A DNA stretch of 64,000 bases, taken from the NCBI RefSeq assembly GCF_947496985.1, contig NZ_CANMEZ010000004.1, positions 372,001 through 436,000 of the forward strand, written 5' to 3'. Source of the stretch: an uncultured Kordia sp. (lineage in GTDB: Bacteria > Bacteroidota > Bacteroidia > Flavobacteriales > Flavobacteriaceae). The notes under the pieces were generated by a model. The model searched no databases. It was given only the letters and a program-made list of their open reading frames with translations, and was not told the origin of the DNA. Position 1 is the first letter of the stretch, and each line of letters begins with the position of its first letter. Below are positions 8,525 to 56,881 of this stretch, piece by piece. The position numbers were made by a program, and so were the translations under genes.

Positions 8525-8622
8525 AATTAATTTTTTCTTGATTAATAATTTATTGAGTTGTGTAGTTTTTCTAGAATGAACTACACTTAAAATAGAATGG
8601 CCAAAGACTATTTTCATTACTA

Positions 8623-8630
8623 CAAATTTA
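8623..8630 (-). promoter_or_regulatory. Predicted -7 element of the beta-helix gene
   Basis: Minus-strand TAAATTTG matches TAnnTTTG. Transcription would start near 8616, about 90 bases before the chosen ATG at 8524 and downstream of the longer frame's first codon at 8641. No good -33 TTG was found. Confidence 0.35.
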
Positions 8631-8784
8631 CGAAACAACAAACCTAAATAACCTTGTTTTACAGTTAGTTAACTGCAACTACAGAACATAACAATATGTG
8701 AAATTATTCTTAGGGAGATAATAGATTTTAGGTATACAGTTTGAATCATATTAACCAACATTAAACCATTAAAACTGAATTATT

Positions 8785-9252: not shown

Positions 9253-9261
9253 GAATTAGTT

Positions 9262-36830: not shown

Positions 36831-38386
36831 GGGGCAGCGTTATTGATATTGTCAACAAATATAGCCATTGATAAGACTCTGAAAAGAAAATACAGTCCTC
36901 TATTCGGACTTTTTTGTTGTTTTTTTGCTAGTTGTACTATTTTTTCCGTGTCAAAGACAGTTTTTAATGCAAGAATATGCTTTTCTAGAAGTTTGCATAA
37001 CTTTTCTCCTATTTCGCTTTGCATTCTGTGATTCCAGTCTTGCACGCTTATGTCTGATTGAATTGGTTTTTTGAAATATTGTAATAAGTCCTTATTTCCT
37101 TCATAAACAATTTGTTCATGAATTTGATCATTTCTATAATGCGTATACGATAAGTTATGCGTTGACTTTATGAAATCTTCATGCAAAAATGGTGTGATTT
37201 TATTTCTAAAAACAGACAGCAATTTGTGTCTATTTCCAAAATTACCAGGTAATCGCCCTTTTCTGTAAAAGTTGATTAACGTTTCAGCATTTGAGTTTCC
37301 TGCGTAATTTTCGGCTACAGCCAAAGCTATATTTTCAGGATAATCATTCATAAACAACTTATAATCAAAAACAAATGAGTCTAATAAAAATTCTTTTGGT
37401 GTTAAGTAGTTATGCATTGCTTTCGCCAAATTCGTGTCTTCTTGAAAAAACATGCGTACACATTCGCCCGCTTCTCCCATAACATAACTGTAATTTTCAG
37501 GAATGGTTTCATCTACAAATTTCAACATATCAACATAGGAAATTGTTGCTAAACCGCCTGAAATACTAGCAATTTGGTTTGCATAATGCTCAAACTCTAT
37601 TTCATTACACAATGTAATGTGACTGTATGAAATATTTAAATTAGTTGCTATTTCTTTTCCTTGCAATACATCTGCCGAATATACATTTCCAAAGTTCCCA
37701 GTTTTTAACTGCTTATTTCCTTTTTCTACCTGACTCAATAACGCCAAACTATCTTTTCCTGCCGTTGCTCCAAAAAATAAATTTTCAGAAGTATATATAC
37801 CATCTTTTAATGAAAATGTTTGTTCTTTATTTGAAAAATCTATTGCTAGTTTTGTTGTGTCGTATGTTAAATCTGAATTAAAAGTATATAGTTTTCCACC
37901 TTCAATTCGAGTTATATTTTTATACGGTAAAGGAAAAGGTGTGACTTGATATCCAAATGTAAAATGTGCTTGCACTCCAAGTTTATCAAATTCTAATGGA
38001 ACATGCAATTCGTTGAAATTCTGGAAATTTAAAAAGAATATCTGTCTATTTTTATTTATTAAACTAAAACTTCCACTAACACCATGTAAATCATTTAAAA
38101 TAAATAGATTAGTGCTTTTTTTATCAGATATAAACAGTTCAAAAACACCTCCTAAATGATTATAAACATTTACAAGAGCTTCTGTAGTATTGTGATGTAA
38201 TTCTTCTAAGAAATCAACAATTTTTTCTTCAGTATGATCAGATGAATACCATATAATTTCGTAGTTATCATCTTCTAACCAATACAATGTACTTCCTTGT
38301 TTTTCTTTTTTAAACAACTCAACCTGAAATTGCTCTTTGTCAAAAGATATATGAAAATTGGTTATGGTATGTTTTTCAAATTTCAC
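36815..38386 (-). CDS. Asparagine-synthase-like protein lacking the glutaminase cysteine
   Basis: 523 residues. The N-terminal 200 resemble the class II glutamine amidotransferase domain of AsnB (GGVFELFISD, FILNDLHGVSGSFSLI), but position 2 is Lys, not the catalytic Cys. A PP-loop-like ATP site follows, FGATAGKDSLALL (about 205-217), in place of the usual S-G-G-x-D-S. The C-terminal part is the asparagine-synthase synthetase fold with a Tyr/His-rich helical end. It probably activates a carboxylate of a sugar and joins it to ammonia or another amine. It overlaps neuA at the upstream side by four bases. Assignment is by fold, moderate. Confidence 0.65.
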   Translation of the reverse strand: MKFEKHTITNFHISFDKEQFQVELFKKEKQGSTLYWLEDDNYEIIWYSSDHTEEKIVDFLEELHHNTTEALVNVYNHLGGVFELFISDKKSTNLFILNDLHGVSGSFSLINKNRQIFFLNFQNFNELHVPLEFDKLGVQAHFTFGYQVTPFPLPYKNITRIEGGKLYTFNSDLTYDTTKLAIDFSNKEQTFSLKDGIYTSENLFFGATAGKDSLALLSQVEKGNKQLKTGNFGNVYSADVLQGKEIATNLNISYSHITLCNEIEFEHYANQIASISGGLATISYVDMLKFVDETIPENYSYVMGEAGECVRMFFQEDTNLAKAMHNYLTPKEFLLDSFVFDYKLFMNDYPENIALAVAENYAGNSNAETLINFYRKGRLPGNFGNRHKLLSVFRNKITPFLHEDFIKSTHNLSYTHYRNDQIHEQIVYEGNKDLLQYFKKPIQSDISVQDWNHRMQSEIGEKLCKLLEKHILALKTVFDTEKIVQLAKKQQKSPNRGLYFLFRVLSMAIFVDNINNAAPCEKR

Positions 38387-39081
38387 AGTGTTATTGTTTT
38401 AGCCAATTGTTCTGCCTTTAACCAATCGTTTTGAGTGTCGATGTTAACATAATACTTTTTATCTGAAACCACATATGACAATGAGTTTCCATATAACGAA
38501 TTTTCCTGTTGTATGATATTTGTTTTTGTGATGTAAATACTTCCATCTCTATGATATGCTTTTGGTAATTCTTGACGTCTAGGAATGATGTTCTTTTCTC
38601 CGGTTGCAATTTGCAAGACACCATTTTCATTCGCTTCAAACGTCCAGTGCGGATTGTATTCGTGCGGTACTTCTAAGACAGAAACTAACGAATCTGTTTG
38701 TTTTTCCTTGAAAGTCTCTAATGCTTTCTCTAAAAAACCTGTTGGCCTGAACGGACTTGTAGGTTGTAATAAGCATATAGCATCAAAGTGTTTTCCTTCT
38801 GTTTCGAAATATGAAATTACATGCTGAATTACGGGTAATGTTGGTGTTGCATCTTCCGCTAAGTGTTTTGGACGCACAAAAGGAACATTCGCACCAAGCG
38901 ACTTAGAAATTGCAATTATTTCTTCATCATCAGTTGTCACTACTACTTCATTGATGTACTTTGACTCCAACGCAGCGTCGATACTATATTGAATTAATGG
39001 CTTTCCATTGAGTAATTTTTTATTTTTCCCTGGAACACCTTTGCTTCCACCTCTTGCTGGTATGACTGCGAGAATATTCAT
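38383..39081 (-). CDS. neuA: Acylneuraminate cytidylyltransferase (CMP-sialic acid synthetase)
   Basis: Activates a nonulosonic acid with CTP to the CMP-sugar. 232 residues with the family start LAVIPARGGSKGVPGKNKK (CTP binding, about 4-22), PLIQYSIDAAL, VVTTDDEEI, and LQPTSPFRP near 101-111. The NeuB and NeuC genes lie directly upstream, giving the full path UDP-GlcNAc to CMP-sialic acid. Start ATG; its stop overlaps the next start by four bases. Whether the sugar is N-acetylneuraminic acid or a variant such as legionaminic acid is not decided by sequence. Confidence 0.9.
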   Translation of the reverse strand: MNILAVIPARGGSKGVPGKNKKLLNGKPLIQYSIDAALESKYINEVVVTTDDEEIIAISKSLGANVPFVRPKHLAEDATPTLPVIQHVISYFETEGKHFDAICLLQPTSPFRPTGFLEKALETFKEKQTDSLVSVLEVPHEYNPHWTFEANENGVLQIATGEKNIIPRRQELPKAYHRDGSIYITKTNIIQQENSLYGNSLSYVVSDKKYYVNIDTQNDWLKAEQLAKTITL

Positions 39082-39164
39082 ATAGTAATTTATTATTTTT
39101 TTAAGTAATGTGTAACCATTGGGAATTTAGAATTCCGCTAGTATTTTAAGACAAACTGTATTTA

Positions 39165-40322
39165 TTAGTACATAATTGTTTTATGTGAAATGAGTTTTGA
39201 TTGTGCTAATGCGTCTGCAATACGTTTTCCTGAGTTTCCATCTCCGTAAATATGTTCGGAAAGCATTCCTTTTCGCGCAATTCGTTCTTCAATTGCGGTT
39301 TTGATTAAATCTTTATCATACGCTACATCTAACACGTTTTTACCACGTTGACGGCGATTTTGACGTGTTCCAATGTTTACTGTTGGTACACCAATAAATG
39401 AACATTCACGAATTCCGACACTTGAGTTTCCTACTAAACAATCACAGTTTTTTAGTAAGTGCAAAAAGTCATTTGGCTCCATGTTTTTAAAGAAACGAAT
39501 GTTTTCAGGATTGAAATTTTCTCTGTAATACCGAATTCCGTTCGATGTTCCGTCCGAACCAGCGTCTACATTGGGCCAAAACCAAAATGTTGGTATATTT
39601 AACTCATGAACAGCTTTTAAGGTAGCTAATACATCTTCTCGTGCCGATTTATAACGATTTGTCTCAGGATGTTGCATTACAACTAAATATCCATTAGAAA
39701 GGTCTAAATCAGCTCCTACACCACCATATTTTTTTATTGGATCAACATCATGTGTGTTATTTTCTAATACTTGCTTTGCTATATCAATAGATGGACAACC
39801 TGTATTGATTACATAATCAGGGTCTTCACCTAGTTTAATAACTCTCTCTTTTGCATCTTCTGAAGCAACTAAATGTATGTCTGCAAGTTTTGTATTTGCA
39901 TGGCGTACTTTTTCATCAATGTTACCTGTTACTTCTCCACCTTGAATATGCACTAACGGAATGTTTTGATATGCCGCTGCAATACTTGTCGCGATGGTTT
40001 CAAAACGATCGGCAATTGTAATGACAGCATCAGGTTTTAGATTGTAAAATACATTTGAAAGTTCCATAACACCTAAACCTGTTGTTTTAGCCATTGCAGT
40101 TGGATTTTCACCTTCCAATACCATGAACACTTTTTCGTCAATCTTAAAACCATCTTTTTCTATGACATTTACCGCATTTCCATAACGTCCTAACAATGCA
40201 GAACCGGCAACTACTAATTGTAATTCAAGTTTTGGATGTTCTTGAATTGCTTTTAATGCTGTTTTGATTCTACTGTATGATGGTCGTGCTGTAACTACCG
40301 CACATATTTTTCGTTTGCTCAT
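39165..40322 (-). CDS. neuC: UDP-N-acetylglucosamine 2-epimerase (hydrolysing)
   Basis: Makes ManNAc from UDP-GlcNAc, first step to sialic acid. 385 residues, GT-B-like fold; start RKICAVVTARPSYSRIKTAL, ITIADRFETIATSIAAA near 99-115, HIQGGEVTGNIDEKVRHA near 124-141, VMQHPETNRYKS near 208-219 and NSSVGIRECSFIGVPTVNIG near 297-316. This order matches the hydrolysing NeuC/LegG type rather than the WecB type. Lies between neuB (141-base gap) and neuA (83-base gap). Confidence 0.9.
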   Translation of the reverse strand: MSKRKICAVVTARPSYSRIKTALKAIQEHPKLELQLVVAGSALLGRYGNAVNVIEKDGFKIDEKVFMVLEGENPTAMAKTTGLGVMELSNVFYNLKPDAVITIADRFETIATSIAAAYQNIPLVHIQGGEVTGNIDEKVRHANTKLADIHLVASEDAKERVIKLGEDPDYVINTGCPSIDIAKQVLENNTHDVDPIKKYGGVGADLDLSNGYLVVMQHPETNRYKSAREDVLATLKAVHELNIPTFWFWPNVDAGSDGTSNGIRYYRENFNPENIRFFKNMEPNDFLHLLKNCDCLVGNSSVGIRECSFIGVPTVNIGTRQNRRQRGKNVLDVAYDKDLIKTAIEERIARKGMLSEHIYGDGNSGKRIADALAQSKLISHKTIMY

Positions 40323-40463
40323 TTTTGTTTAATTCAATAATTGAAAAATTAAATGATGTAAAAGATTAAATTTTCAATTTTATAGTATTTCTCGATACAA
40401 AATTCTTCCAAAATTTCATTCGAAATCACATTTTTATTGATGTTCTATTTAAAACTTAACAAT

Positions 40464-41468
40464 TCACAATACATCTTCTTCATTCAAAAAATCCCATTGG
40501 TTCATGTCTTTTACAAGCTTTTTTCCTAAAACTTCTTGAAATTTAGATGCAAGTATTCCATAGTTTTTTGGCTTCTTTGCTTCTAAATCGTTGAATGTTA
40601 GCACATGCCCTTTTGGTAATTTTTTATTTATAGCTAATGATTTTTCAAAGATTTGTTTTAATTCTGAATATTGTGAGTTATCCATTTTATCAATTGGATG
40701 ATTTAAAGCTTCATCAATATTTCTAACCGCTTGGACTAGTTGTGTCGTTTCTGAAAATGTAAGCGATGATTTTGCATCAGGTCCAAACATTTCTTTATTA
40801 AATACGACATGAAATTCTAAGATTTCTGCACCAAGTGTTACTGCAGCAATTCCAGCTTCTATTCCCGAAGAATGATCTGAAAACCCTATTGAAACTTGAT
40901 ATTTATTTTTTAATTCTCGAATTACATTTAAACCAAATTGTTTTGGTGCTGTCGGATACGACGTTGTACATTGTAAGATAGAGAATTCACAGTTTTTTTC
41001 TTTAAGAAAAGCTACCGTAGCGTCCAATTCGGAAAACGAACTCATTCCGGAAGAGATAATAACTGGTTTTCCTGTGTTTGCAATTTTTTCTAATAATAGA
41101 AAGTTATTGACTTCCCCCGAACCTACTTTATAGTGTTTTACACCTACTTCTTCTAACAAATCTACAGCGGCATTACTGAATGGTGACGAAATGAAATCTA
41201 AACCAACTTCATCACAATGTGCTTTGATTTCTTTCCATTGCTCTAATGAAAACTCCATACGTTGCCAGTATTCATAGCGTGTTGCATCTTGCTTGGAGAA
41301 TTTTACTCTAAATGGTTCATGAATGCTACTTTCCGCCACAGCGATATGCGTTTGAAACTTGATAGCATCCGCACCTGTTTTTGCAACAGCATCAATGTAC
41401 GCATGCGCCATTCCGAGACTTCCGTCATGTGCCTGAGCTATTTCTGCTATGATGTAGGTTTTTTTCAT
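40464..41468 (-). CDS. neuB: N-acetylneuraminate synthase (NeuB family)
   Basis: Condenses phosphoenolpyruvate with ManNAc or a related amino sugar. 334 residues: TIM-barrel start YIIAEIAQAHDGSLGMA, KTGADAIKFQTH, DFISSPFSNAAVDLLEEVGV and PVIISSGMSSFSELDATV; CTTSYPTAPKQFG and the FSDHSSGIEAGIAAVTLGA segment supply the metal/PEP site; a C-terminal SAF (antifreeze-like) domain begins near 275 (KGHVLTFNDLEAKKP). ATG start. Transcribed just before neuC and neuA. Confidence 0.9.
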   Translation of the reverse strand: MKKTYIIAEIAQAHDGSLGMAHAYIDAVAKTGADAIKFQTHIAVAESSIHEPFRVKFSKQDATRYEYWQRMEFSLEQWKEIKAHCDEVGLDFISSPFSNAAVDLLEEVGVKHYKVGSGEVNNFLLLEKIANTGKPVIISSGMSSFSELDATVAFLKEKNCEFSILQCTTSYPTAPKQFGLNVIRELKNKYQVSIGFSDHSSGIEAGIAAVTLGAEILEFHVVFNKEMFGPDAKSSLTFSETTQLVQAVRNIDEALNHPIDKMDNSQYSELKQIFEKSLAINKKLPKGHVLTFNDLEAKKPKNYGILASKFQEVLGKKLVKDMNQWDFLNEEDVL

Positions 41469-45842: not shown

Positions 45843-47327
45843 TTACTTGAAAAACTTGCGTTTAAGTGCTTTCAAGACTTTAAACGGTCTTTTATAATTA
45901 TATTTTATAAATCGCAAGCCCTTGTATACTTTGTATGAAGTTTTAAAATAAGTTGAGTTATTATACTTACTTACTTCTTCATACATCTTTTTGTAATGCA
46001 TCATTTTCATTTGCATTCCAACTATGTTATTTGCCTGATAAATGTTGTGTTGTCTGTATTCTAAGTTTGTATTTGCAGCCTTTTTAGCAGTCCAGCCTTT
46101 CGCTATGATACGTTTAAATAAGTTGTAATCTTCTGCTTTTTTCGATTCAATGTATCCGCCAACATCGTCAAACACAGAACGTCTGTACATAGACGAACCA
46201 TGAATACAGTTTCGTTTTTCTATTTGCGCAACTAATGCTTCTTTTGTATCAAATTCTGGAAAGTTGATTTGATAAAATGTATCTAAAATGATTGCGCCTT
46301 TCCATTCTTCGGTAAAGTTTTGATGCGTTAATTTTGCTCTTGAACCAAAGAATGCATAGTCTGTGTAGGCAATTGCCGCGTCTTTATTATGATCTAACAC
46401 ATTGCTACAATCTTCCACATAGTTACTGACCAAACGATTGTCTGCTCCTAAAAAGAAGACATATTCAGCCGTTGTGAGTTTGATGGCTTTATTGAAATGT
46501 GCTACAATTCCCATGTTTTTCTCATTTCTGTTGTATTTGATGAGATTAGGATATTTTTTCACATACCCTTCTGCAATTAATTGTGTATCATCATCTGAGT
46601 GATCGTCTGTAATAAGTATTTCATCTGGGACAATGGTTTGTTTTAATACAGATTCTATAGCTTCTATTAAAAAATCTCCATAGTTATAACTTGCTATGAT
46701 ACATGCTATTTTTTCTTTTCGAAGACTTGTTTCATTGACAACCGTAAGCCTGTTTAGCTTGTATACATCCGAATCATTCCCTTGATTACATGAAACTGCT
46801 CCTTTGAAGCGTTTTGCTGTTTCTTCTAGAACTACATCATTGAATTCTCCATGTGGATATGCAAACCAATTGAATCCGTTAAGATCAAGTGTTTTGATGT
46901 CTTCAGGAATTGATAATTCGTTTATAATTAATTCTCTGTCTGTAACTTCTTTTAAGTTTGGATGTGACTTTGTGTGCCATTGCAATCTTCCTCCGTTAGC
47001 AACTAATTCTTGCAATTCTTCTCTGCTTGTAAATGGTGCATTGGGTTCTACGTTATCAAATTCGTTGTCTTTGTCTAAATAGTCAGAAGTGATAAATAGT
47101 TCAAACGGATATCCAAACTGTTTCATGACGGGCATTGCATATTGCAACACGTTTTTATAAATTCCATCAAACGTGATTACTACATGTTTCGGATTGTTTA
47201 CATCATAATCCTCTAAGAATACCACTTCTTTTGAAGATAACTCTGCCATTTGCCTGTAAAAGTCATTTACAGTAACCCACCACATAGTTGGCGAGTCCAA
47301 ATATATTTTATGATACATTAAAATCAT
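45843..47327 (-). CDS. Polysaccharide deacetylase-like / GT2 fusion protein
   Basis: 494 residues. Residues 1-200 look like a NodB-type deacetylase: MILMYHKI at the start and the metal-site pair His118/His122 in WHTKSHPNL. However the catalytic TFDDG motif reads TFDG at 52-55 (ITFDGIYKNV), so the second, metal-binding Asp is replaced by Gly. Residues about 205-494 are a full GT-A glycosyltransferase: KIACIIASYNYGDFLIEAIE, DEILITDDHSDDDT, FLGADNRLV. ATG overlaps the methyltransferase stop by four bases. Probably a two-domain sugar enzyme with an inactive or altered deacetylase half. Confidence 0.82.
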   Translation of the reverse strand: MILMYHKIYLDSPTMWWVTVNDFYRQMAELSSKEVVFLEDYDVNNPKHVVITFDGIYKNVLQYAMPVMKQFGYPFELFITSDYLDKDNEFDNVEPNAPFTSREELQELVANGGRLQWHTKSHPNLKEVTDRELIINELSIPEDIKTLDLNGFNWFAYPHGEFNDVVLEETAKRFKGAVSCNQGNDSDVYKLNRLTVVNETSLRKEKIACIIASYNYGDFLIEAIESVLKQTIVPDEILITDDHSDDDTQLIAEGYVKKYPNLIKYNRNEKNMGIVAHFNKAIKLTTAEYVFFLGADNRLVSNYVEDCSNVLDHNKDAAIAYTDYAFFGSRAKLTHQNFTEEWKGAIILDTFYQINFPEFDTKEALVAQIEKRNCIHGSSMYRRSVFDDVGGYIESKKAEDYNLFKRIIAKGWTAKKAANTNLEYRQHNIYQANNIVGMQMKMMHYKKMYEEVSKYNNSTYFKTSYKVYKGLRFIKYNYKRPFKVLKALKRKFFK

Positions 47328-47851
47328 TTGTGGTAAATTTCAAGTTTATGATTGTAGGTTCTGTATTTGTAAAAGAGTTCTTTTACACGTAGGTATGGAA
47401 ATTGAGAATAATACCAATCGTCAATATGTACTGAAATCAAGATTCCATCCTCTTTTAAGATGTTGTCTATTAGTTGATAGATCAAGTTTGTAGATTTCCC
47501 AATGTATTGTTGGTATAATACGCCCGTAATGATAATAAGATCAAATTTTTCAGGTGCAATTTTGTCAATGTCAAAAATACTTCCTTCTAAAAATTTCAGT
47601 GTATCTGTTTCTTTTTGTTTTGCAAATTTTATTGCATTTGCAGAAATGTCCACACCATACACTTTATCACCTGGTAAATTTTGTGTAATGAATCCTTGCC
47701 CGCAACCAATATCGAGTACAGTTCCGTAATGTTTTAGTGGAATTTCACTTATTAGAATATCTTTTCGTTTGATGTCATCCGCACTATTTTCATAATCCCA
47801 AGGATCTTTTTGATCGTGCCAGCTATTAAGTTCTGAGTATTCTTGAATCAT
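47324..47851 (-). CDS. Class I SAM-dependent methyltransferase
   Basis: 175 residues. SAM-binding motif GTVLDIGCGQGFITQNL (near 39-55), acidic loop DKVYGVDISANAIKFAKQ, and LIIITGVLYQQYIG. Short but complete for a Methyltransf_11/25 fold. Lies between wzt and the deacetylase-GT2 gene, each overlapping by one to four bases, so a role in methylating the polysaccharide, perhaps at a chain end as in the O9/Raetz-type Wzt systems, is plausible. Confidence 0.82.
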   Translation of the reverse strand: MIQEYSELNSWHDQKDPWDYENSADDIKRKDILISEIPLKHYGTVLDIGCGQGFITQNLPGDKVYGVDISANAIKFAKQKETDTLKFLEGSIFDIDKIAPEKFDLIIITGVLYQQYIGKSTNLIYQLIDNILKEDGILISVHIDDWYYSQFPYLRVKELFYKYRTYNHKLEIYHK

Positions 47852-49116
47852 TATTTATTAGTGTGTTTCCATTTATGATCTACGATTATTGTTCCCCATT
47901 TAGAATCGACTAGTTTGCCATTTCCGAAATAGTCATTTTCTTCCACTTCAAACGTAAGTACTTTTTCCAGATAATCGGCAACTCCTGCTTTGTTTGCTAC
48001 AAATACGTTTAATAAGTACGAACCTTGAACTAAAGGTAAAGAATCTATTTTACATCTCACTTTTCCTGTGTTTTGGTCAATCGTAGCAATTTCTTTTTTC
48101 AGGTTTGATGATATGCTGATAATTTTTGTTTCATCCAATTTCCATATACTAATTCCAAATTCATCAATTTCAAAATTGGAATTATTTTTATAACTGAGTT
48201 CTACTTCAAACGGAGCACCTGTTTTTATTTCACTGGAAAGTATTACAGCATTTGTTATTCTGGCTTGACCGGAACCTAAACGTTCTGTACGTGTTGCAAT
48301 ATCCGTTTCCTTAATAACCGTATTCTTTTCAATGTATTTATTTATAGTACTTTCTACATCTCCTGCGTAGGAAACCATTCCGTCTTCTAACAAAATAGCT
48401 CTACTACATAACCGACGTATCGTCATCATATTATGACTCACAAACAAAACTGTTCTCCCATCTCCATGAGAGATGTCTTGCATTTTACCAATGGCTTTCT
48501 TTTGAAATTCAACATCTCCAACCGCTAACACTTCATCTACAATAAGGATCTCTGGTTCTAAATGGGCTGCTACAGCAAATGCCAAACGCACTTTCATTCC
48601 TGAAGAGTAACGCTTTACAGGTGTATTTATATATCGTTGAACACCTGCAAATTCTACAATTTCATCAAATTTTACTTTGATTTCAGCTTTAGTCATTCCT
48701 AAAATTGCACCGTTTAGATATATATTTTCTCTTCCTGTTAATTCTGGATGAAACCCAGTTCCTACTTCTAACAAAGAGGCAATTCGTCCTTTAGAACGAA
48801 TTACACCTTTTGTTGGTGTTGTTACTTTAGAAAGTAGCTTTAGCAAGGTTGATTTTCCTGCACCATTTCTTCCGATGACTCCTAATACTTCCCCTTTTTC
48901 AAGATCAAAAGATATGTCTTTTAACGCCCATACATAGTTGGAAGTCCCAATTTCAGTACGTGCATTTTTATCTCCTATTTTTTGATACGGATCTTCTTTT
49001 CCACGAATTTTATGCCACCAACGATTTAAATCATGTGTAATAGTTCCTGTACCAATAACTCCTAAACGATATTGTTTGGATAATTCTTCTACCTGTAATA
49101 TGATATCTTTTTCCAT
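47851..49116 (-). CDS. wzt: Polysaccharide ABC transporter ATP-binding protein Wzt
   Basis: 421 residues. ATPase domain with GVIGRNGAGKSTLLKLLSKV (Walker A, about 82-101), YLNGAILGM Q-loop region, YSSGMKVRLAFAVAAH (signature), and ILIVDEVLAVGDVEF (Walker B). A C-terminal domain of about 155 residues (266-421) follows, containing FEVELSYKNNSNFEIDEFG and KCKIDSLPL-like beta strands; this is the position of the Wzt cargo-recognition domain. Together with Wzm it exports a lipid-linked polysaccharide. Overlaps wzm by one base. Confidence 0.9.
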   Translation of the reverse strand: MEKDIILQVEELSKQYRLGVIGTGTITHDLNRWWHKIRGKEDPYQKIGDKNARTEIGTSNYVWALKDISFDLEKGEVLGVIGRNGAGKSTLLKLLSKVTTPTKGVIRSKGRIASLLEVGTGFHPELTGRENIYLNGAILGMTKAEIKVKFDEIVEFAGVQRYINTPVKRYSSGMKVRLAFAVAAHLEPEILIVDEVLAVGDVEFQKKAIGKMQDISHGDGRTVLFVSHNMMTIRRLCSRAILLEDGMVSYAGDVESTINKYIEKNTVIKETDIATRTERLGSGQARITNAVILSSEIKTGAPFEVELSYKNNSNFEIDEFGISIWKLDETKIISISSNLKKEIATIDQNTGKVRCKIDSLPLVQGSYLLNVFVANKAGVADYLEKVLTFEVEENDYFGNGKLVDSKWGTIIVDHKWKHTNK

Positions 49117-50006
49117 TATACCGTATCTATAAAATTACGTTCTGTTTTATTAAATATCACTAAACCTAGTAAAAAAACAATGAAAGCTACTACAAACATA
49201 ACTCCTATACTTATTAATGAAAAAATTGCCTGCCCATTATCTAAATAAGCTCCTGAAAAAACCATATACCTAAATGATTCTATTACATGTGCTAAAGGAT
49301 TGTAAGCAACCAACCATGAAACATAGGTTGGCAATTTATCTTCCACTATTGTTATTGGATACATCACTGCTGAGATATACATTAGTAATTGTATTCCAAA
49401 TTGAACTAAAAAGCTTAAATCACGATATTTTGTAACCATGGAAGAAATGATCATTCCTAAACCAAGTCCTAAAACTCCCATGATAATCACCACAATAGGT
49501 ATTAGCAATACATACCAAGATAAGGTTCCTGTTTCTCCATTTAAGGAAAAGTAAATGTAAAAAGCAATAAATATAAATGACTGTATTGCAAACTTTAGTA
49601 AGTTTGATATTGTAATGGACAGCGGCATAATAGCTCTAGGAAAATATACTTTTCCAAAGATATTCTCATTTTTTTTAAATGTATCAGAAGTCGCTTTTAA
49701 GCATTCTGCGAAGTAATTCCATATAGTAATTCCTGCTAAGTTAAAGAGAAAGGCATTTACTGTTCCAGTTTTTATATCTGCAATTCCATTGAACACTAAT
49801 GTGAAAATTACAGAGGTCATCAATGGCTGAATAAGATACCATAAAGGACCTAAAACTGTTTGTTTGTATAAAGTAACCACATCACGGCGTACAAAAAGCA
49901 AGAGTAAATCACGATAGCGCCAAATTTCTTTAAATTTAAAGTTAAAAAGGTTGCTTTTGGGTGATATCTCAAATAACCATGTATTGTTTTCTTGGGGTTT
50001 GTTCAC
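49116..50006 (-). CDS. wzm: Polysaccharide ABC transporter permease Wzm
   Basis: 296 residues of the ABC-2 (TagG/Wzm/KpsM) family with six membrane helices. Landmarks are the cytoplasmic start segment YRDLLLLFVRRDVVTLYKQT, VLGPLWYLIQPLM, ENIFGKVYFPRAIMPLS near 132-148 and MYPITIVEDKLPTYVSWLVA. The start codon is GTG. Directly followed by wzt. Together they form the inner-membrane exporter of the block. Confidence 0.9.
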   Translation of the reverse strand: MNKPQENNTWLFEISPKSNLFNFKFKEIWRYRDLLLLFVRRDVVTLYKQTVLGPLWYLIQPLMTSVIFTLVFNGIADIKTGTVNAFLFNLAGITIWNYFAECLKATSDTFKKNENIFGKVYFPRAIMPLSITISNLLKFAIQSFIFIAFYIYFSLNGETGTLSWYVLLIPIVVIIMGVLGLGLGMIISSMVTKYRDLSFLVQFGIQLLMYISAVMYPITIVEDKLPTYVSWLVAYNPLAHVIESFRYMVFSGAYLDNGQAIFSLISIGVMFVVAFIVFLLGLVIFNKTERNFIDTV

Positions 50007-50028: not shown

Positions 50029-50406
50029 TTACCAAATGTTTTCTAAATCTTTTTTTGAGTAGGTATGATTTCGTTCTACAAATGTAGTGTTAGAATCGTG
50101 TTTCAGTTTTAGATTGTTTTTTGAGAATATACGCGATAAGATTCCAAATGGCGTCAAAAAGATAAAAAACACAACTGATAAGATGATTTTTGTATTAATC
50201 CATCCTAAAACTAGTGCAATTTTTTCCCAAATCCAGACAACTAAACGTTCTAATGGAGGAATAAACGATGCTACACCAACTCCTAAAGCAATGTACCGTA
50301 CAGCATTGGCTGCATCTATTTTTACATAATGAAACTCTAGAATAGCTGAGATTATTAAAAATCCAGCCACGATTACTAATATAACTTTCGTATTACTTTC
50401 TTTCAT
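50029..50406 (-). CDS. SxtJ-like membrane protein
   Basis: 125 residues with three to four membrane helices (about 7-24, 35-52, 58-72 and 75-92). The chain matches the SxtJ family: helix pair with RYIALGVGVASFIPPLERLV, WEKIALVLGWINTKI and FIFLTPFGILSRIFSK. SxtJ and the DUF5989 protein regularly accompany NodU-type O-carbamoyltransferases; function unproven, possibly a membrane anchor or substrate channel for carbamoylation. The start lies one base after the DUF5989 stop. Confidence 0.8.
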   Translation of the reverse strand: MKESNTKVILVIVAGFLIISAILEFHYVKIDAANAVRYIALGVGVASFIPPLERLVVWIWEKIALVLGWINTKIILSVVFFIFLTPFGILSRIFSKNNLKLKHDSNTTFVERNHTYSKKDLENIW

Positions 50407-50407
50407 A

Positions 50408-50557
50408 CTAGAATAGTGTGTAAATGAATGGTGCTATTGCTGATCCTCCTCCTAAAACTAGGATAACTCCTAGCAATAGTAATACAATGATCATTGGCAA
50501 TAACCAGAATTTTTTTCGTTCTTTTAAGAAGTTAAATATATCTTTCAAGAATTCCAT
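50408..50557 (-). CDS. DUF5989 (SxtK-like) micro membrane protein
   Basis: A 49-residue protein. It starts MEFLKDIFNFLKERKKFWLL and continues with one membrane helix (PMIIVLLLLGVILVLGGGSA), ending in PFIYTLF. This is the pattern of DUF5989, a tiny protein conserved next to carbamoyltransferases. It lies seven bases after the SGNH gene stop and one base before the SxtJ-like start; the spacing shows it is real and translated with them. Confidence 0.8.
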   Translation of the reverse strand: MEFLKDIFNFLKERKKFWLLPMIIVLLLLGVILVLGGGSAIAPFIYTLF

Positions 50558-50564
50558 ATGATAG

Positions 50565-51704
50565 TTATTTTGTGTCTTTTATAAATTTAGCTAGTTCTTC
50601 TCCCATTTTTTTGTTTCCTGCCGGATTAAAATGACAATCATCATATAAATAGGTACTAGTTTTTGAAATGATAGAATCTGTTTTAAATACTGGAATGTTA
50701 AATTTTACACTTTCATTTACAGTAATCATATTGATACTATCTACTTTTTGCTGCAACTTTTCTGCATTGTAACGAATGCCTCCGCGAGACGTCATCCAAT
50801 GCCATTTTTTTAAGGCTTTTTCACTCGTATCCCAAGTCACTACTTGCGTCGCAAATATAAGCTTTATATCATTAGCTTGACATATACCTATAAGTGATTT
50901 TATTTTATTCACATAATTACCATAATCTACTGTAGGTAATTTATTTTCAATCAGTCTCGCTTGCGTTTTCGCTGCTTTTTTTGCATATTTTGATTGAATT
51001 CCAATGGTTTCTAAATTTTCATCTTCGCTTTTAAACGCATAAAATAAACGTCTTGGAATTTGAAATTCATACATAAATATACCCAACATTTTTCGGAAAC
51101 CAATTTCTTCTTTTTTCTGCTTTGTTATATTATATTTTAAGGGATTATCATCTAACATTAGCCTGGTAACATCATTAACTCCACAAAACACAATTACTTC
51201 ATCAGGTTGTAAATGCACAATTCTATGCACTAACATAGCTACATGATCTTGGATGTTATCACCAGATTTACCTGCATTGTATACTTTTACAATTTTATTT
51301 TGATAGTTTTCACGATTTAAATTTTCTTGCAAAACCTGCGTCCAAACATCTTTATCATCTACATATAGATTTTCTGTAGAACTTCCTCCTATTGCAAATA
51401 TTCTATATTCACTATTTGGTTTAGGCATTTTTAAATCTTCTCCACGAAAACCATAGTTATTAATCGTAAAGTCGGTAACTTCTTTATAGTTTTCAAATCC
51501 TAACAATCCATCTTCTGTAGAGAATTGCAGTTTCATATTTCGATCAAACTGCGATTCTATATACATGTTACCAATTGTTGGAAAAAACATATTTTTCTTA
51601 GCATTCTCATACGGATCTGACACTGGAAAAAACCACAACAAAGCTTCCACTAATACTAAAAGTACTAGTAAAACAATGAGATTATATTTTATCGTTTTCC
51701 ACAC
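50565..51704 (-). CDS. SGNH/GDSL-type hydrolase
   Basis: About 380 residues with an N-terminal membrane anchor (LIVLLVLLVLVEALLWFF). The soluble part is an SGNH hydrolase: block I FAIGGSSTENLYVDD (Ser in GGSST), block III with VFCGVNDVTRL (G-x-N-D) and block V YDDCHFNPAGNKKMG (D-x-x-H). It likely acts in the periplasm as an O-acyl or acetyl esterase or transferase on the polysaccharide. I start at the GTG 51704, six bases after the carbamoyltransferase stop; a TTG at 51737 would add eleven residues and overlap. Equivalent to SxtL in the related saxitoxin gene set. Confidence 0.8.
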   Translation of the reverse strand: MWKTIKYNLIVLLVLLVLVEALLWFFPVSDPYENAKKNMFFPTIGNMYIESQFDRNMKLQFSTEDGLLGFENYKEVTDFTINNYGFRGEDLKMPKPNSEYRIFAIGGSSTENLYVDDKDVWTQVLQENLNRENYQNKIVKVYNAGKSGDNIQDHVAMLVHRIVHLQPDEVIVFCGVNDVTRLMLDDNPLKYNITKQKKEEIGFRKMLGIFMYEFQIPRRLFYAFKSEDENLETIGIQSKYAKKAAKTQARLIENKLPTVDYGNYVNKIKSLIGICQANDIKLIFATQVVTWDTSEKALKKWHWMTSRGGIRYNAEKLQQKVDSINMITVNESVKFNIPVFKTDSIISKTSTYLYDDCHFNPAGNKKMGEELAKFIKDTK

Positions 51705-51709
51705 AATAA

Positions 51710-53569
51710 TTAGTCTAATAAAAATTCTTCTTTCCAATCATCAGGATCGTCCCAACTTTGCTGTTCTTCTTTTTTATATACGTAATTCCCAATAACTAAA
51801 TAGTCCATTTCTGTACGCATGAAACAACGATATGCATCATCTGGCGTACAAACTATTGGTTCGCCCCGAACATTAAAACTCGTGTTTACAACTACTCCAA
51901 CATTTGTGATTTTTTTGAACTCATTAATCAATTCCCAATATTCAGCATTGGTTTCTTTGTGAACTGTTTGAATTCTCCCAGAGAAATCAATATGTGTAAT
52001 TGCTGGTAATGATGAACGCTCTACATATAGTTTTTCACGAATTGGTAATTCATGATAATTTACAGGAACTTCATTTTTTATTTTTGAGTGAATTTTATGT
52101 ACCAACAACATATATGGCGAAATTCCTTTATAATCGAAAAATTCGTTTACATCTTCTGACAATACTGATGGCGCAAATGGTCTGAATGATTCTCTATATT
52201 TAATTTTTAGGTTTAGTTTTTTCTGCATTTCTGGATTTCGGGCATCTCCTAAAATACTTCTTCTCCCTAAAGCTCTTGGTCCAAATTCCATACGTCCTTG
52301 CATCCAACCTATTGCATTTCCTTCTGAAATATATTTTGCTACTTCTTTTGTTAATTCATTAAAATTAGAAAAATGCGTAGCTTTTGCATTGTATTTTCTA
52401 TTGATATTTTCAACATCTAAATCTGAGAATTCAGGACCTAAATACGAACCTTTCATGGCGTCATTTGAAACTATTTCTCGTTCTTGCTCGAAATATAGAT
52501 AATTTGCAGTTAATGCAGCTCCTAAAGCACCACCAGCATCTCCTGCTGCAGGTTGAATGAATATCTCTTTAAATATATTTTCGTTTTGGAGTTTTCCGTT
52601 TGCAACACAATTCAATGCAACTCCACCTGCCATACATAAATAGTCAGCTCCGGTAATTTCTTTAGCATGTTTCGCTAATTTGATAATAATTTCCTCTGTT
52701 ACTTCTTGTATTGCTAGGCCTAAATCAGAATGTTGTTGTTCAAATTCAGATTCAGACGTTCGTCTTGGAAAACCAAATAGCACTTCCCATTTATCATCAT
52801 ATACCATGCGCAAACCAACCGCATAGTTAAAGTATTTCTGATCTAACCAAATAGAACCATCTTCATTTATCTTGATTAGTTTGGTTTTAATGATTTCTTT
52901 AAATTTTTGCACACGTTCTGAATTCGGGTTTCCATATGGCGCTAACCCCATAAGCTTGTATTCTCCTGAATTCACTTTAAATCCTAAGAAATAAGTAAAT
53001 GCTGAATATAATAATCCGACTGAGTGCGGAAATTGCAATTCTTTCAACATTGTAATATTTTCTCCATCACCCAAACTAATAGAAGCTGTAGCCCATTCTC
53101 CTACTCCATCCAAAGTTAAAATTGCTGCTTTTTTATATGGAGAAGGATAAAAAGCACTTGCTGCGTGTGACAAGTGATGTTCTGGAAAAAGTAGTTTTAG
53201 TTTTTTCTTATCATATGAGTGAATTTCTTTTAACTCATCTTTAATTAGTTTCTTTAAAAACATTTTTTCCTTTAACCATACGGGAATTGCAGTAATGAAT
53301 GAAGCAACACCTTTTGGCGAAAAACCATAATAGGTTTCTAACAATCGCTCAAATTTCAATAATGGTTTGTCATAAAAAACAACCGCATCTAATTGATCTA
53401 TTGTTTTTCCAACGTGTTCTAAACAGTAACGTACTGCATTTGTTGGAAACGCAGGATCGTGTTTCTTACGTGTGAAACGTTCTTCTTGCGCAGCAGCCAT
53501 AATTTTCCCATCTTGAACAATTGCTGCGGCAGAGTCGTGGTAAAATGCGGATATTCCTAATATCGTCAT
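51710..53569 (-). CDS. O-carbamoyltransferase (NodU/CmcH family)
   Basis: 619 residues. Transfers a carbamoyl group from carbamoyl phosphate to a sugar hydroxyl by way of carbamoyl-AMP. N-terminal Kae1-like domain: GISAFYHDSAAAIVQDG, EERFTRKKHD, metal-binding HHLSHAASAFYPSPY near 112-126, LTLDGVGEWATAS near 133-145 and MAGGVALNCVANGK near 310. The C-terminal carbamoyltransferase domain has GPRALGRRSILGDARN near 430. The ATG at 53569 is chosen; the longer frame from 53599 lacks any conserved residues. It is followed by the SGNH, DUF5989 and SxtJ genes. Confidence 0.9.
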   Translation of the reverse strand: MTILGISAFYHDSAAAIVQDGKIMAAAQEERFTRKKHDPAFPTNAVRYCLEHVGKTIDQLDAVVFYDKPLLKFERLLETYYGFSPKGVASFITAIPVWLKEKMFLKKLIKDELKEIHSYDKKKLKLLFPEHHLSHAASAFYPSPYKKAAILTLDGVGEWATASISLGDGENITMLKELQFPHSVGLLYSAFTYFLGFKVNSGEYKLMGLAPYGNPNSERVQKFKEIIKTKLIKINEDGSIWLDQKYFNYAVGLRMVYDDKWEVLFGFPRRTSESEFEQQHSDLGLAIQEVTEEIIIKLAKHAKEITGADYLCMAGGVALNCVANGKLQNENIFKEIFIQPAAGDAGGALGAALTANYLYFEQEREIVSNDAMKGSYLGPEFSDLDVENINRKYNAKATHFSNFNELTKEVAKYISEGNAIGWMQGRMEFGPRALGRRSILGDARNPEMQKKLNLKIKYRESFRPFAPSVLSEDVNEFFDYKGISPYMLLVHKIHSKIKNEVPVNYHELPIREKLYVERSSLPAITHIDFSGRIQTVHKETNAEYWELINEFKKITNVGVVVNTSFNVRGEPIVCTPDDAYRCFMRTEMDYLVIGNYVYKKEEQQSWDDPDDWKEEFLLD

Positions 53570-53622: not shown

Positions 53623-56076
53623 TTAACTTTTTTTGAACAGATTTTTCAATCTAGTCATAAATGACTTTCGTTCATCTTCATGATAACCATTTCCATAGTT
53701 TCCATAACCGTAGCCGTATCCATAACCATATCCGTAACTATATCCATATTTGGCTTTTTGACGGAAATCATTTAATACAAAGCTTATATTTGTTATTTCT
53801 TTTTTCTTGTACTTTTCATTAATGACATTCAGCATTGCCTTTTTAGTGTATTCTTGTCGAACCAAATACATTGTTGCATCTGCATATTTTATTAAATCTA
53901 CAGCATCAGAAACCAATCCTAAAGGTGGCGTATCCAAAATAACATAATCATAACTTTCATGAAGTTCTTCCATGAATTTATCCATTTGTGAACTGATTAA
54001 TAATTCTGAAGGATTTGGCGGAATTGGTCCAGAAGTAATTACATCTAAATTTTCATATCCTGTAGACTGCACAACTTCCTGTAATGTTTTTTGACCAATT
54101 AAGTAGTTTACGGCACCAAAATCGTTTGTAATTCCAAAATCATCAAATATCTTAGGTTTACGCAAATCCAGTCCAACTAAAACTGTCTTTTTTCCCATTA
54201 AGGAAAAAACAGAAGACACATTTATTGAGCAAAAGGTTTTTCCTTCTCCACTGACTGAAGAAGTTACCATAATTGTTTTTGTTTTATTTATATCTAAATC
54301 CTTATAGATATATTGTAGACTCGATCGAATTCCTCTAAAAGATTCCGCCACAGATGACTTAGGGCTATTAAATACAGCTAAATTATTAGCAACTTTACTT
54401 CTTCCTATAATTCCAAGAATTGGAATAGTTGAGTTAGATTTTAAATCGTCTGGAGTATGAATATTAGTATCAAGAATTGTTGTCAAAAAAACAAATAAAG
54501 CAGGAAGTAATAATGCTATAAAAAGTGCTATGGAGTAATTTTTTTGTGTATCAGGAGCTATTGCTGCTTGCCCAAGATCACGTGCTCTATCAATCACCTT
54601 AATATCAGAAACGTTAGATGCTTTAGCAATTCCAGCTTCATTCCGTTTTGTAAGCAACATTGTATATGAAGCCTGACTTATTTCATAACTACGTTGTATG
54701 TTGAATAATTCTTGTTCTTCAGCAGGTAATTTTCTAAATTCTGCTTGCGCTCTAGCTGTTCTAGATCTCACATCTTGCTGATTTAACTCAATAGATGTTT
54801 TTTCTGTAATAATACTTTCTAACAACACGTTTTTTGTTGCTTCTATAGATCGATCAATATCTTTTAAAAAAATTGGATTCTTGGTTGTTTTTGCTCGCTG
54901 TGCCCTTGTAACTGAAAGATTTACAATTTTAGTAACTCCTTGTATAATGTTTTGATTTGTAATACCTGATGAAGCTGGCGCTGGTAAATTTGAATAATCT
55001 TCTGCGTTAATTAAATAATTTTTTAAAAGTTCGCAGTATCGTAATTTTAAATTTAAGCCACTTATCTGATCATCATAACTACTTAACTTTGTAAATAAAG
55101 CATCTCCTTCTGCTGAAGGATTTAAAACCTGATTTCGTTGTTTAAACTCTCTAATTCTATCTTCTTCGGATTCTAATGAATCTTTTACACCCACCATCAT
55201 TTTATCAATAAAAGCAATCGTATTAACTGCAAATTGATTCTTTTGCTCTAACTGTTTTTCTCTTAAAACATCTGCAGTAGCATTTAAATAATCGGCTAAA
55301 ATTTCTCTATTCGGCCCAACAAGACTCAATACCAATAATGAAGCTCCTTTTGTTTTTAGAAAAACATTTATGTTTTTATACTTATTTACCTCAGATTTAA
55401 TTGAAGAAAAACGCAGATAGTAATCCTGTCCGGTATTCCACTTTATTTCTGGAATTTTTATTAACTTAAACTTTAAAAACGGTAGTAAAACTGTATCATT
55501 AATATTATACGACTCTTTAAACTCCTTAGATATAACTGATTCTCTAGAAATTTCATTTGCTGTATAATTAATTACATTAAATGTCGTTTTGTCTTCAAAA
55601 TCAAAAGAAAGTTCATATGAATTATCATCAATAAATTTTATTTTGATTATCTGATCAATCATTTGGTTATGAAGTTCATCTAATTCTACTCTAAATGGAG
55701 CTTTTTTATATATATCTTCATATCTATACTCGCCTTTTCGTAAGTAATGAATATATGACTGTAGTAAACTAACAATTTCTTCATTATGAGATCTAGATTC
55801 AAGAATAATTTTGATGGTTTCAATTTTATCGCTAGTTCCTCCCCAATTAAATACTAAACTAGTATTTGCAGAAAAGAAAGGGTTTTGCTCTTCTTTAATT
55901 GAAATTAAACTCTCAACATTATAAATTCGTTGTAATCTTTTATTGTAGAAATATGTAATCACAAAAGCAATTCCCATAGTAATTACGAAAAGATACCAAT
56001 AACTCAATGCTCGTAATGCAAATGCTTTTATATCAAAAGAATTTTGCGATACTGATTCTTCGAATTCCTCTTCCAT
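53623..56076 (-). CDS. wzc: Polysaccharide co-polymerase / tyrosine autokinase (Wzc)
   Basis: 817 residues. Two membrane helices (about 28-48 and 510-530) bracket a long Wzz/GNVR periplasmic domain with coiled coils; then a BY-kinase domain: Walker A SSVSGEGKTFCSIN, Walker A' TVLVGLDLRKPKIFD, Walker B YVILDTPPLGLVSD. The C terminus is a Tyr/Gly ladder (YGYSYGYGYGYGYG, then NYGNGYHEDE), the autophosphorylation tail. It controls chain length and export with Wza. Start ATG four bases before the wza stop codon's end. The tail is unusually regular. Confidence 0.93.
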   Translation of the reverse strand: MEEEFEESVSQNSFDIKAFALRALSYWYLFVITMGIAFVITYFYNKRLQRIYNVESLISIKEEQNPFFSANTSLVFNWGGTSDKIETIKIILESRSHNEEIVSLLQSYIHYLRKGEYRYEDIYKKAPFRVELDELHNQMIDQIIKIKFIDDNSYELSFDFEDKTTFNVINYTANEISRESVISKEFKESYNINDTVLLPFLKFKLIKIPEIKWNTGQDYYLRFSSIKSEVNKYKNINVFLKTKGASLLVLSLVGPNREILADYLNATADVLREKQLEQKNQFAVNTIAFIDKMMVGVKDSLESEEDRIREFKQRNQVLNPSAEGDALFTKLSSYDDQISGLNLKLRYCELLKNYLINAEDYSNLPAPASSGITNQNIIQGVTKIVNLSVTRAQRAKTTKNPIFLKDIDRSIEATKNVLLESIITEKTSIELNQQDVRSRTARAQAEFRKLPAEEQELFNIQRSYEISQASYTMLLTKRNEAGIAKASNVSDIKVIDRARDLGQAAIAPDTQKNYSIALFIALLLPALFVFLTTILDTNIHTPDDLKSNSTIPILGIIGRSKVANNLAVFNSPKSSVAESFRGIRSSLQYIYKDLDINKTKTIMVTSSVSGEGKTFCSINVSSVFSLMGKKTVLVGLDLRKPKIFDDFGITNDFGAVNYLIGQKTLQEVVQSTGYENLDVITSGPIPPNPSELLISSQMDKFMEELHESYDYVILDTPPLGLVSDAVDLIKYADATMYLVRQEYTKKAMLNVINEKYKKKEITNISFVLNDFRQKAKYGYSYGYGYGYGYGYGNYGNGYHEDERKSFMTRLKNLFKKS

Positions 56077-56080
56077 GTGG

Positions 56081-56881
56081 CTATAAATTTCTAGATAATA
56101 TTATAATACTTGTTACCAACGACAAAACGGTAACAACAGTAGTAATAGACTGCACTAATGTTGTTCCAGTTCCTAATGATTTCTGTTTTAATGGTTTTAC
56201 ATAAATCATATCATTAGGTTTTATGTAATAATAAGGAGAATTAAATGCCTCTGCACTCGTTAAATCTATATGGTGTATTTTTTGACCTTGCGGATACTGA
56301 CGTATCACCAATACATCTTTTCTATTTCCAAGAGTACTTATATCTCCTCCACTTGCTAAGGCTTCTATAATATTTACTCGATCTTGGTATAAAGTATAAA
56401 TTCCAGTACTTCCGACTTCACCAGTTACTGTAAATCTTAAACCAGCAAGTTTTATTACCACAAAAATATTTGCCTCTTCTGTAAAATACTCATCTAATAA
56501 CTTTTCACGGACTATCTTACTTATTTCATCCGTAGTATATCCTAAAACATTAAGCTCTCCAATAAGTGGGATTTTTATATTTCCATGCATATCAACAGTA
56601 AAACCATTGTAATACAATCCTTGTTCTGATTGTGCTGCATTTGCATTATCATTAGTACTAGGTTGAAACATTTCTGTTAATTTCGGATCTGAAGATTTGA
56701 TGTTTATCGATAATAAATCACCAATTTGAAGCTTATATGGTTTCTGGTTAACCTTAATACTTTGCTGTATGAGTTCCTTATCTTTTTCTTTATCACCAAA
56801 GTAAGTAAGTTCTTTGTTTGTTACACAAGAAGACAGGAAACATAATAAAAGTAGAATAGATATTGAGGCTTTCAATTTCAT
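56081..56881 (-). CDS. wza: Polysaccharide export lipoprotein Wza
   Basis: 266 residues, lipoprotein signal with lipobox FLSSC (Cys19). The Poly_export domain contains KPYKLQIGDLLSINIK and DMHGNIKIPLIGELNVLGYT, followed by a SLBB domain (LRFTVTGEVGSTGIYTLYQD, and SGGDISTLGNRKDVLVIRQ in part). The C-terminal hydrophobic helix LVQSITTVVTVLSLVTSIII resembles the amphipathic barrel helix. Shorter than E. coli Wza (379), as usual in Bacteroidota. First gene of the leftward block, with a promoter element 27 bases upstream. Confidence 0.93.
   Translation of the reverse strand: MKLKASISILLLLCFLSSCVTNKELTYFGDKEKDKELIQQSIKVNQKPYKLQIGDLLSINIKSSDPKLTEMFQPSTNDNANAAQSEQGLYYNGFTVDMHGNIKIPLIGELNVLGYTTDEISKIVREKLLDEYFTEEANIFVVIKLAGLRFTVTGEVGSTGIYTLYQDRVNIIEALASGGDISTLGNRKDVLVIRQYPQGQKIHHIDLTSAEAFNSPYYYIKPNDMIYVKPLKQKSLGTGTTLVQSITTVVTVLSLVTSIIILSRNL

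Follow-up and report, generated by a model that had tools for sequence, protein, structure and literature searches.

We analyzed a 64,000-nucleotide stretch of DNA from an uncultured Kordia sp. (contig NZ_CANMEZ010000004.1, positions 372,001 to 436,000; here called the window) in which four genes lie on the minus strand within a cluster for an exported polysaccharide. The first to be transcribed encodes an O-carbamoyltransferase of the NodU/TobZ type (here, CarbT; 51710..53569), identified by matches to PF02543 (313 bits) and PF16861 (238.5 bits), by trees that place it in the clade described below, and by alignment to GdmN and a NovN-type structure. It is followed by genes for an SGNH protein with one N-terminal helix (50565..51704, assuming a GTG start; PF00657, 45 bits; PF13472, 39 bits), a DUF5989 membrane microprotein of 49 amino acids that ends in PFIYTLF (50408..50557; PF19451, 91 bits), and an SxtJ-like membrane protein of 125 amino acids (50029..50406; PF19588, 22.1 bits). 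The intergenic gaps are 5, 7, and 1 bases. Coordinates and Pfam matches agree with the original prediction, which was made from the sequence alone and described these four genes in this order of transcription, within a few bases of each other. The SxtJ score is below the PF19588 cutoff of 24.4; the assignment is safe because the protein shares 45% identity along its length (E = 1e-30) with the SxtJ of genome G190, which passes the cutoff. The 5.48-Mb genome of the window has a single copy of DUF5989, and the DUF5989 protein of K. jejudonensis is 100% identical to it.

We counted CarbT, DUF5989, and SxtJ by Pfam profile in a single set of 296 genomes from the phylum. The C-terminal domain of CarbT was found in 128 genomes, DUF5989 in 106 (E ≤ 0.001; 104 above the cutoff), and SxtJ in 103 (E ≤ 0.01; 89 above the cutoff). 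By genus, DUF5989 was present in 71 of 140. Among the 104 genomes with DUF5989 above the cutoff, 103 had CarbT and 102 had SxtJ. A further SxtJ without a Pfam call, in G194, lies in the same place and is 32% identical to the window SxtJ (E = 2e-21); once this pairwise match is counted, both partners were present in 103 of the 104 genomes. The sole exception, G047, has a DUF5989 match at a contig edge with an internal stop. Three solitary matches below the cutoff (weak DUF5989 in G273 and G140; weak SxtJ in G265) were left out of these counts. With weak matches included and kinship between genomes ignored, DUF5989 and SxtJ occurred together in 102 genomes, DUF5989 alone in 4, SxtJ alone in 1, and neither in 189 (Fisher's exact test, P = 1.7e-73). 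CarbT occurred without DUF5989 in 25 genomes. We concluded that the co-occurrence exceeds chance.

Both partners were within 10 kb of DUF5989 for 66 of 105 matches, one partner for 4, and neither for 35. Among the 35 are the G047 match and the second copy of G249; most of the 35 lie on different contigs from their partners. In four genomes (G179, G030, G112, and G231), all three genes are on one contig, with DUF5989 0.23 to 2.5 Mb from the other two. Hence, the linkage amounts to more than operon proximity. Among 18 unlinked loci that we scanned, 3 (L057, L062, and L064) have DUF5989 directly upstream of carA (by Pfam), with CarbT and SxtJ elsewhere; each of the three has a carB-type gene, and carB itself was confirmed in L062. 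The products of carA and carB form carbamoyl phosphate synthetase, the source of carbamoyl phosphate. We regard the linkage of CarbT, DUF5989, and SxtJ as very nearly certain.

A scan of a collection of species genomes gave at least 593 pattern matches, with 579 confirmed relatives of DUF5989. The 80 loci that we kept are the best scoring rather than a random draw, and they overlap in part with the 296 genomes (for example, L141 and G282), so the two sets are not independent. The three genes were found together in 73 of the 80 loci, on one strand in every case, with a median span of 2.5 kb. In one of the other seven loci, L190, SxtJ is fused to CarbT; in the remaining six, the absent genes are elsewhere in the genome. 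All 80 genomes had all three families, counting CarbTs placed elsewhere whatever their clade. The 69 loci with a CarbT of sufficient length for a tree come from Bacteroidota (21), Pseudomonadota (18), Balneolota (9), Thermodesulfobacteriota (6), Nitrospirota (5), Sumerlaeota (2), Myxococcota (2), Cyanobacteriota, Acidobacteriota, Rhodothermota, and Elusimicrobiota (1 each), and 2 others. The suggestion that this is an old, general module was supported by the presence of the three genes together in 11 named phyla and by their retention where they are unlinked. Two smaller observations concern this set. Eight Pelagibacteraceae loci (L166, L169, L177, L179, L180, L196, L199, and L204) have a compact SxtJ-DUF5989-CarbT arrangement, in which the SGNH profile found no match. 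One locus, L202, has the three genes and an SGNH gene in a metagenome-assembled genome (MAG) titled Rickettsia typhi, a label that seems doubtful for an environmental bin.

The fourth gene of the window is not as constant. A gene for an N-terminally anchored SGNH protein was present in 15 of the 20 loci that we selected because their genes are linked (L031 to L050, including one that lacks CarbT), in 4 of the 20 that surround DUF5989 genes, mostly unlinked ones (L051 to L070), and in only 33 of the 80 loci of the wider scan. A Pfam check of neighboring genes covered 118 of 121 chosen neighbors, taken from part of the 47 SGNH-less loci, up to L189; it gave 4 PF13472 matches among 118 neighbors from SGNH-less wider loci plus two MBOAT-like open reading frames (ORFs). 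Because SGNH is not universal in these sets of loci, we rejected a four-gene module as a fixed unit. SGNH proteins of these loci are short (about 390 amino acids) or carry TPR repeats (about 630 to 690 amino acids), and a Nitrospirae genome (G302, locus L214) repeats the window order of CarbT, SGNH, DUF5989, and SxtJ. The suggested co-occurrence of four families was supported for three of them and was not consistent for the SGNH family. We concluded that the core set is CarbT, DUF5989, and SxtJ and that SGNH is a frequent partner rather than a fixed member.

DUF5989 has an N-terminal part that is basic and aromatic, followed by a single hydrophobic helix and a tail. Twelve positions are invariant in an alignment of 40 rows: F10, R14, W18, L19, P21, L26, A42, P43, F44, I45, Y46, and F49. 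The C terminus reads PFIYxxF in all 40 rows and in 70 of 70 ORFs from loci of the phylum (among which the same gene often recurs), and it reads PF[IV]YxxF in 81 of 81 from the wider scan, for which one search pattern contained APFIY. In every DUF5989 tail read, F-x-Y-x-x-F forms the last six residues. As a control, we looked for the same ending in the other ORFs of the 80 loci: it occurred in 2 of 1,067 nonoverlapping ORFs and in 2 of 14,149 ORFs of at least 40 amino acids in all frames. Of these two control ORFs, the one in L170 is an MBOAT protein by Pfam and the one in L128 is 36% identical to it. Lysine and arginine residues average 4.7 before the helix and 0.01 after it, a charge bias that, by the positive-inside rule, predicts an inside N terminus and an outside C terminus, with the tail outside the cell membrane.

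This ending is known from acyl shuttles. According to the available text of PMC12148441, PatA acetylates the tyrosine of its own C-terminal FXYXXF motif, and a peptide of this kind can donate its acetyl group to PatB; DltX is a membrane microprotein in which the tyrosine of FXYXXF carries D-alanine from DltB to a serine of DltD. Elsewhere, the DltX motif is given as FLYFGF (excerpt of PMC11035591). PMC12148441 makes no mention of carbamoyl. Among 11 MBOAT proteins in a 21-genome sample, 9 end in [FY]IYFQF, and the MBOAT protein of the window's own genome ends in DFIYFQF. With at most six candidates scored per genome, MBOAT matches were found in 45 of 102 genomes with the three genes, compared to 65 of 194 others (P = 0.08); the two are not clearly associated. 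Since 57 of the 102 genomes have no MBOAT match in this count, we rejected MBOAT as a universal partner of DUF5989; something else must load the DUF5989 tail. Some loci do bring the families together. In a Nitrospirae MAG (L170:6525-10147), two SGNH genes and an MBOAT gene whose product ends in FIYFDF have DUF5989 directly behind them, and the same genome holds the CarbT-SGNH-DUF5989-SxtJ locus L214. The second DUF5989 gene of G249 is directly behind an SGNH-TPR gene (L069), and the module locus L031 contains an MBOAT gene whose product ends in FIYFQF. Separately, in L103 and L104, CarbTs from outside the module clade lie near MBOAT-sized ORFs that end in FIYFQF.

The window CarbT has both domains of a class III O-carbamoyltransferase (PF02543 and PF16861), the iron ligands H131, H135, D154, and D344, and the base H11. 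In a tree of 126 CarbTs, from which short or truncated frames were left out and for which 19 of the 25 genomes with CarbT but no DUF5989 were sampled, a branch of 105 rows (Shimodaira-Hasegawa-like approximate likelihood ratio test, 100) holds 89 of 91 CarbTs from module loci and 14 of 14 from genomes with unlinked DUF5989; only 2 of 19 CarbTs from genomes lacking DUF5989 fall in it. The same branch was recovered with support of 100/100 in a 64-row tree that used 30 randomly drawn rows of the 88 from clustered modules and excluded four long-branch rows; it holds all 45 rows from module or unlinked genes and 2 of 19 others. A strict test that held the CarbTs together as one clade was 8.97 log-likelihood units worse and was not rejected (approximately unbiased test, P = 0.26). 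A second CarbT in the genome of the window, on contig C15, falls outside the clade. The four iron ligands and the base are kept in all clade rows.

We then compared acceptor pockets. Pocket elements were taken as GdmN residues 24 to 30, 85 to 98, 156 to 162, and 186 to 203, from the available part of the structural description (PMC9633730), without the loop that the other monomer contributes; in CarbT, the pocket lies at about residues 65 to 102, 154 to 160, and 187 to 202. L110 and L111, two clade members discussed below, were left out of both groups. Across 103 clade rows, conservation was 0.90 in the pocket and 0.69 overall, and only 6 of 629 circular shifts were as high. For nine clade rows with less than 60% identity, the values were 0.91 and 0.68 (5 of 629 shifts as high). 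In contrast, the pocket of 21 other CarbTs was below average (0.49 versus 0.55). The clade enzymes share the two-domain architecture, iron ligands, and base of TobZ, GdmN, and NovN but differ in the pocket and in an inserted stretch (about residues 90 to 102), both of which are specific to the clade and nearly invariant in it. The module clade thus appears to keep a single acceptor site in different phyla, as though its members all served the same acceptor. The conserved thing common to the clade loci is the DUF5989 tail, which is an argument, not a proof, for the tail as a candidate acceptor; an invariant pocket would also be consistent with a lipid or sugar acceptor common to these enzymes.

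In an alignment of 97 SxtJ rows, Trp60 never varies, and Pro86 is nearly invariant. An AlphaFold2 model of the window SxtJ (predicted local distance difference test [pLDDT] score, 90.8) has two short helices (residues 5 to 25 and 30 to 46) and one of 45 residues (50 to 94). In L190 (positions 7650 to 9995), a gammaproteobacterial MAG, one frame of 782 amino acids comprises CarbT and SxtJ (32.5 bits) and is followed by DUF5989. This frame is either a true fusion or a base or assembly error of the MAG; if it is not an error, it puts the N terminus of SxtJ on the CarbT side. We noticed no fusions of DUF5989 to SxtJ or SGNH, and no search aimed at such fusions was made. Profile searches of the PDB with SxtJ and DUF5989 gave nothing convincing.

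The SGNH protein of the window has the Ser, Asn, and His of the SGNH blocks in the alignment. Its AlphaFold2 model (pLDDT score, 82) has an SGNH fold and an N-terminal helix (residues 2 to 24), which is also present in the other alignment rows; the SGNH domain is presumably outside the membrane. In a fold search with this model, CgnD was first by Z score, tied with esterases. The CgnD cluster also has a carbamoyltransferase (excerpt of PMC10070186), which may be coincidence. PatB, DltD, AlgX, and OatA were absent among the matches listed for the model, which excludes nothing. In PatB and OatA, the block II Gly is replaced by Ser or Asn (PMC12148441, in part), and TPR-bearing SGNH proteins of other loci have Ala at this position. 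The window protein is perhaps a final transferase, or it could be an esterase or hydrolase, removing a group rather than adding one.

From the identities and linkage of the genes, the tail motif, the CarbT clade, and its pocket, all as read from sequence, together with the predicted outside position of the tail, we infer a carbamoyl-tyrosine, its crossing of the membrane, and a last step by SGNH. We propose that the genes encode a machine for extracytoplasmic O-carbamoylation of an exported polysaccharide through a tyrosine relay, and we give this reading a probability of roughly one-half. In the cytosol, CarbT would convert carbamoyl phosphate and ATP to carbamoyl-AMP, the known chemistry of its class. 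SxtJ would be the platform that holds CarbT at the membrane. The acceptor would be Tyr46 in the PFIYxxF tail of DUF5989, acting as a DltX-like microprotein, and not a sugar. The aryl carbamate on Tyr46 would then pass to a serine of an extracytoplasmic transferase (in the window, perhaps the N-anchored SGNH protein) and from there to the glycan, whose carbamoylation is part of the proposal. CarbT and SxtJ would together fill the role of MBOAT in the Dlt and Pat systems. Aryl carbamates are carbamoyl donors to serine esterases; hence, the proposed transfer from tyrosine to serine is chemically ordinary. A protein tail as carbamoyl acceptor also has precedent, since HypF carbamoylates the C-terminal Cys of its partner HypE (PMC9633730, in part), although that acceptor is a cysteine and the enzyme is of another class. 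The original prediction had both small membrane proteins bringing the enzyme or its acceptor to the membrane; SxtJ keeps such a role as a partner of CarbT, given the single CarbT-SxtJ frame, while DUF5989 is better read as a putative carbamoyl carrier.

The proposed relay resembles the Dlt system (DltA/C, DltB, DltX, and DltD) in having a membrane microprotein with a C-terminal F-x-Y-x-x-F, predicted here to be extracytoplasmic, a cytosolic activating enzyme, and, in the window, an N-anchored partner of the SGNH type. It differs in using carbamoyl-AMP chemistry rather than a carrier-protein thioester, in having no MBOAT protein in the set, and in that DUF5989 has no detectable sequence kinship with DltX. 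With PatA/PatB and other MBOAT-SGNH pairs, it shares a C-terminal [FY]IYxxF with the tyrosine fourth from the end, an SGNH partner, and a cell envelope glycan. Here, however, the motif is on a separate microprotein, and CarbT and SxtJ would replace MBOAT.

Several observations weigh against the tyrosine relay. Its weakest step is that CarbT, assumed to be cytosolic, must meet a tail predicted to be outside. MBOAT proteins bridge the membrane via a tunnel; SxtJ, with 125 residues, is small. A fold search with the SxtJ model found no structural relative at E ≤ 0.001. Across 21 genomes, 9 of them with DUF5989, the DltX profile (PF12459) matched no DUF5989 in its own reading frame at E ≤ 1; a single weak hit, in G013, overlaps DUF5989 out of frame. 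Convergence can produce a motif with four fixed residues, and the set of 80 loci is biased by the APFIY in one of the two patterns behind it. The association of CarbT clade and DUF5989 has exceptions in both directions. The second CarbT of L163 and the only CarbT of L189 are at DUF5989 loci and fall outside the clade (the L189 genome has another CarbT, beside SxtJ), and the clade CarbTs of L110 and L111 come from genomes (G211 and G227) with no DUF5989 or SxtJ match, possibly through losses or misses. Finally, SGNH is unlinked in most loci of the wider scan, the nearest folds of the window SGNH model are mostly esterases, and, unlike PatB and OatA, the window protein keeps the block II Gly (GKSGDN).

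The leading alternative is that of the original prediction, in which CarbT directly carbamoylates a sugar or lipid-linked repeat in the cytosol, SxtJ and DUF5989 tether or stabilize the enzyme, and SGNH trims carbamoyl or acetyl groups. Relatives of the TobZ, GdmN, and NovN type act directly on small acceptors (available part of PMC9633730), the CarbT-SxtJ fusion in L190 fits tethering, the SGNH fold is esterase-like, and the scheme matches the published view of SxtI, in which SxtI transfers with SxtJ and SxtK and SxtL removes (PMC2679770, in part). Tethering, however, explains neither an invariant tail motif that is predicted to face away from the enzyme nor the invariance of the pocket across different clusters. 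We consider this explanation rather unlikely. An acetyl shuttle is more doubtful still: DUF5989 would serve MBOAT/SGNH acetylation, its tyrosine carrying acetyl, and would be merely coupled to CarbT. The likeness of its tail to MBOAT tails and the MBOAT genes adjoining DUF5989 in L170 and inside L031 speak for this, but, with at most six candidates scored per genome, 57 of the 102 genomes with the three genes have no MBOAT match and there is no clear association, and the MBOAT proteins beside DUF5989 already bear their own tail motif. Least probable is that DUF5989 and SxtJ, both short membrane proteins, the latter with a helical model lacking a known relative, form an export or channel subunit with the tail as a docking or stability signal of no covalent role, since the tyrosine is as far from the C terminus as that of the MBOAT tails encoded in these same genomes and, in PatA and DltX, the tyrosine of that motif carries the acyl group (PMC12148441, in part).

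The four gene types of the window also occur in saxitoxin clusters. The published gene table lists sxtI, sxtJ (405 bp), sxtK (165 bp), and sxtL in succession, and the authors proposed transfer by SxtI with SxtJ and SxtK and removal by SxtL (PMC2679770, in part). In partial texts of other studies, sxtJ and sxtK are adjacent to sxtI (PMC2885083), relatives of all four genes occur in Oscillatoriales (PMC2684587), and the suomilide cluster has sxtJ-, sxtK-, and sxtL-like genes together (PMC10157211). The window contains each of the four types that define the set in the PMC2679770 table. Judged from the published gene tables and sizes, DUF5989 may correspond to SxtK. An Oscillatoriales genome in our scan (L150, 12.9 kb seen) has the order CarbT-SxtJ-DUF5989-SGNH near glycosyltransferase genes. 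This order fits the suggestion that the toxin pathway may have borrowed the module, a view based on published gene tables and sizes. The saxitoxin set differs in its small-molecule context, and the available published text describes no tyrosine-relay role for sxtK.

If the tyrosine relay is correct, the outside glycans of many bacteria are predicted to be carbamoylated by it, and acyl-tyrosine shuttling would extend beyond the MBOAT and AT3 systems. We suggest, with slightly less than even confidence, that CarbT and SxtJ loading DUF5989, which would deliver carbamoyl to outside transferases, represent a third type of acyl relay across the membrane, one that depends on neither MBOAT nor AT3 proteins and is present in at least 11 phyla, and that sxtK likewise encodes a shuttle. 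The orphan families DUF5989 and SxtJ gain a testable role, for which Tyr46 is decisive, and small genes annotated only after the saxitoxin operon gain an alternative reading. What appears to be new here is an invariant shuttle-type tail on DUF5989, tied to CarbT and SxtJ. In the open-licence PMC literature searched, DUF5989 is not named, no description of the three genes with a shuttle-type tail was found, and, among the papers listed, none by its title joins these genes to an acyl shuttle. Two works might bear on novelty: Schultz, Snow, and Walker (2023) reportedly treat the DltX shuttle, and Kellmann (2008) is said to treat the saxitoxin cluster.

The genes around the four are those of polysaccharide export. 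Upstream are a Wzc-type chain-length/tyrosine kinase (53623..56076; PF13614 and PF13807, with TIGR01007 above its cutoff) and a polysaccharide export protein (56081..56881; PF02563). Downstream is a pair comprising a Wzm-type ABC-2 polysaccharide export permease (49116..50006; PF01061) and an export ATPase with a Wzt_C domain (47851..49116; PF00005 and PF14524), followed by methyltransferase and glycosyltransferase genes. Farther along are nonulosonic acid genes (38383..41468), for which the NCBIfam score is above the cutoff for the NeuC-like product and below it for the NeuB- and PseF-like products; judged from these genes, the exported glycan probably contains a sialic-type sugar. The kinase, export protein, permease, ATPase, and nonulosonic acid genes are on the minus strand. 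A PADLOC scan gave no matches. At 45843 to 47327, a polysaccharide deacetylase domain and a family 2 glycosyltransferase are joined in one protein.

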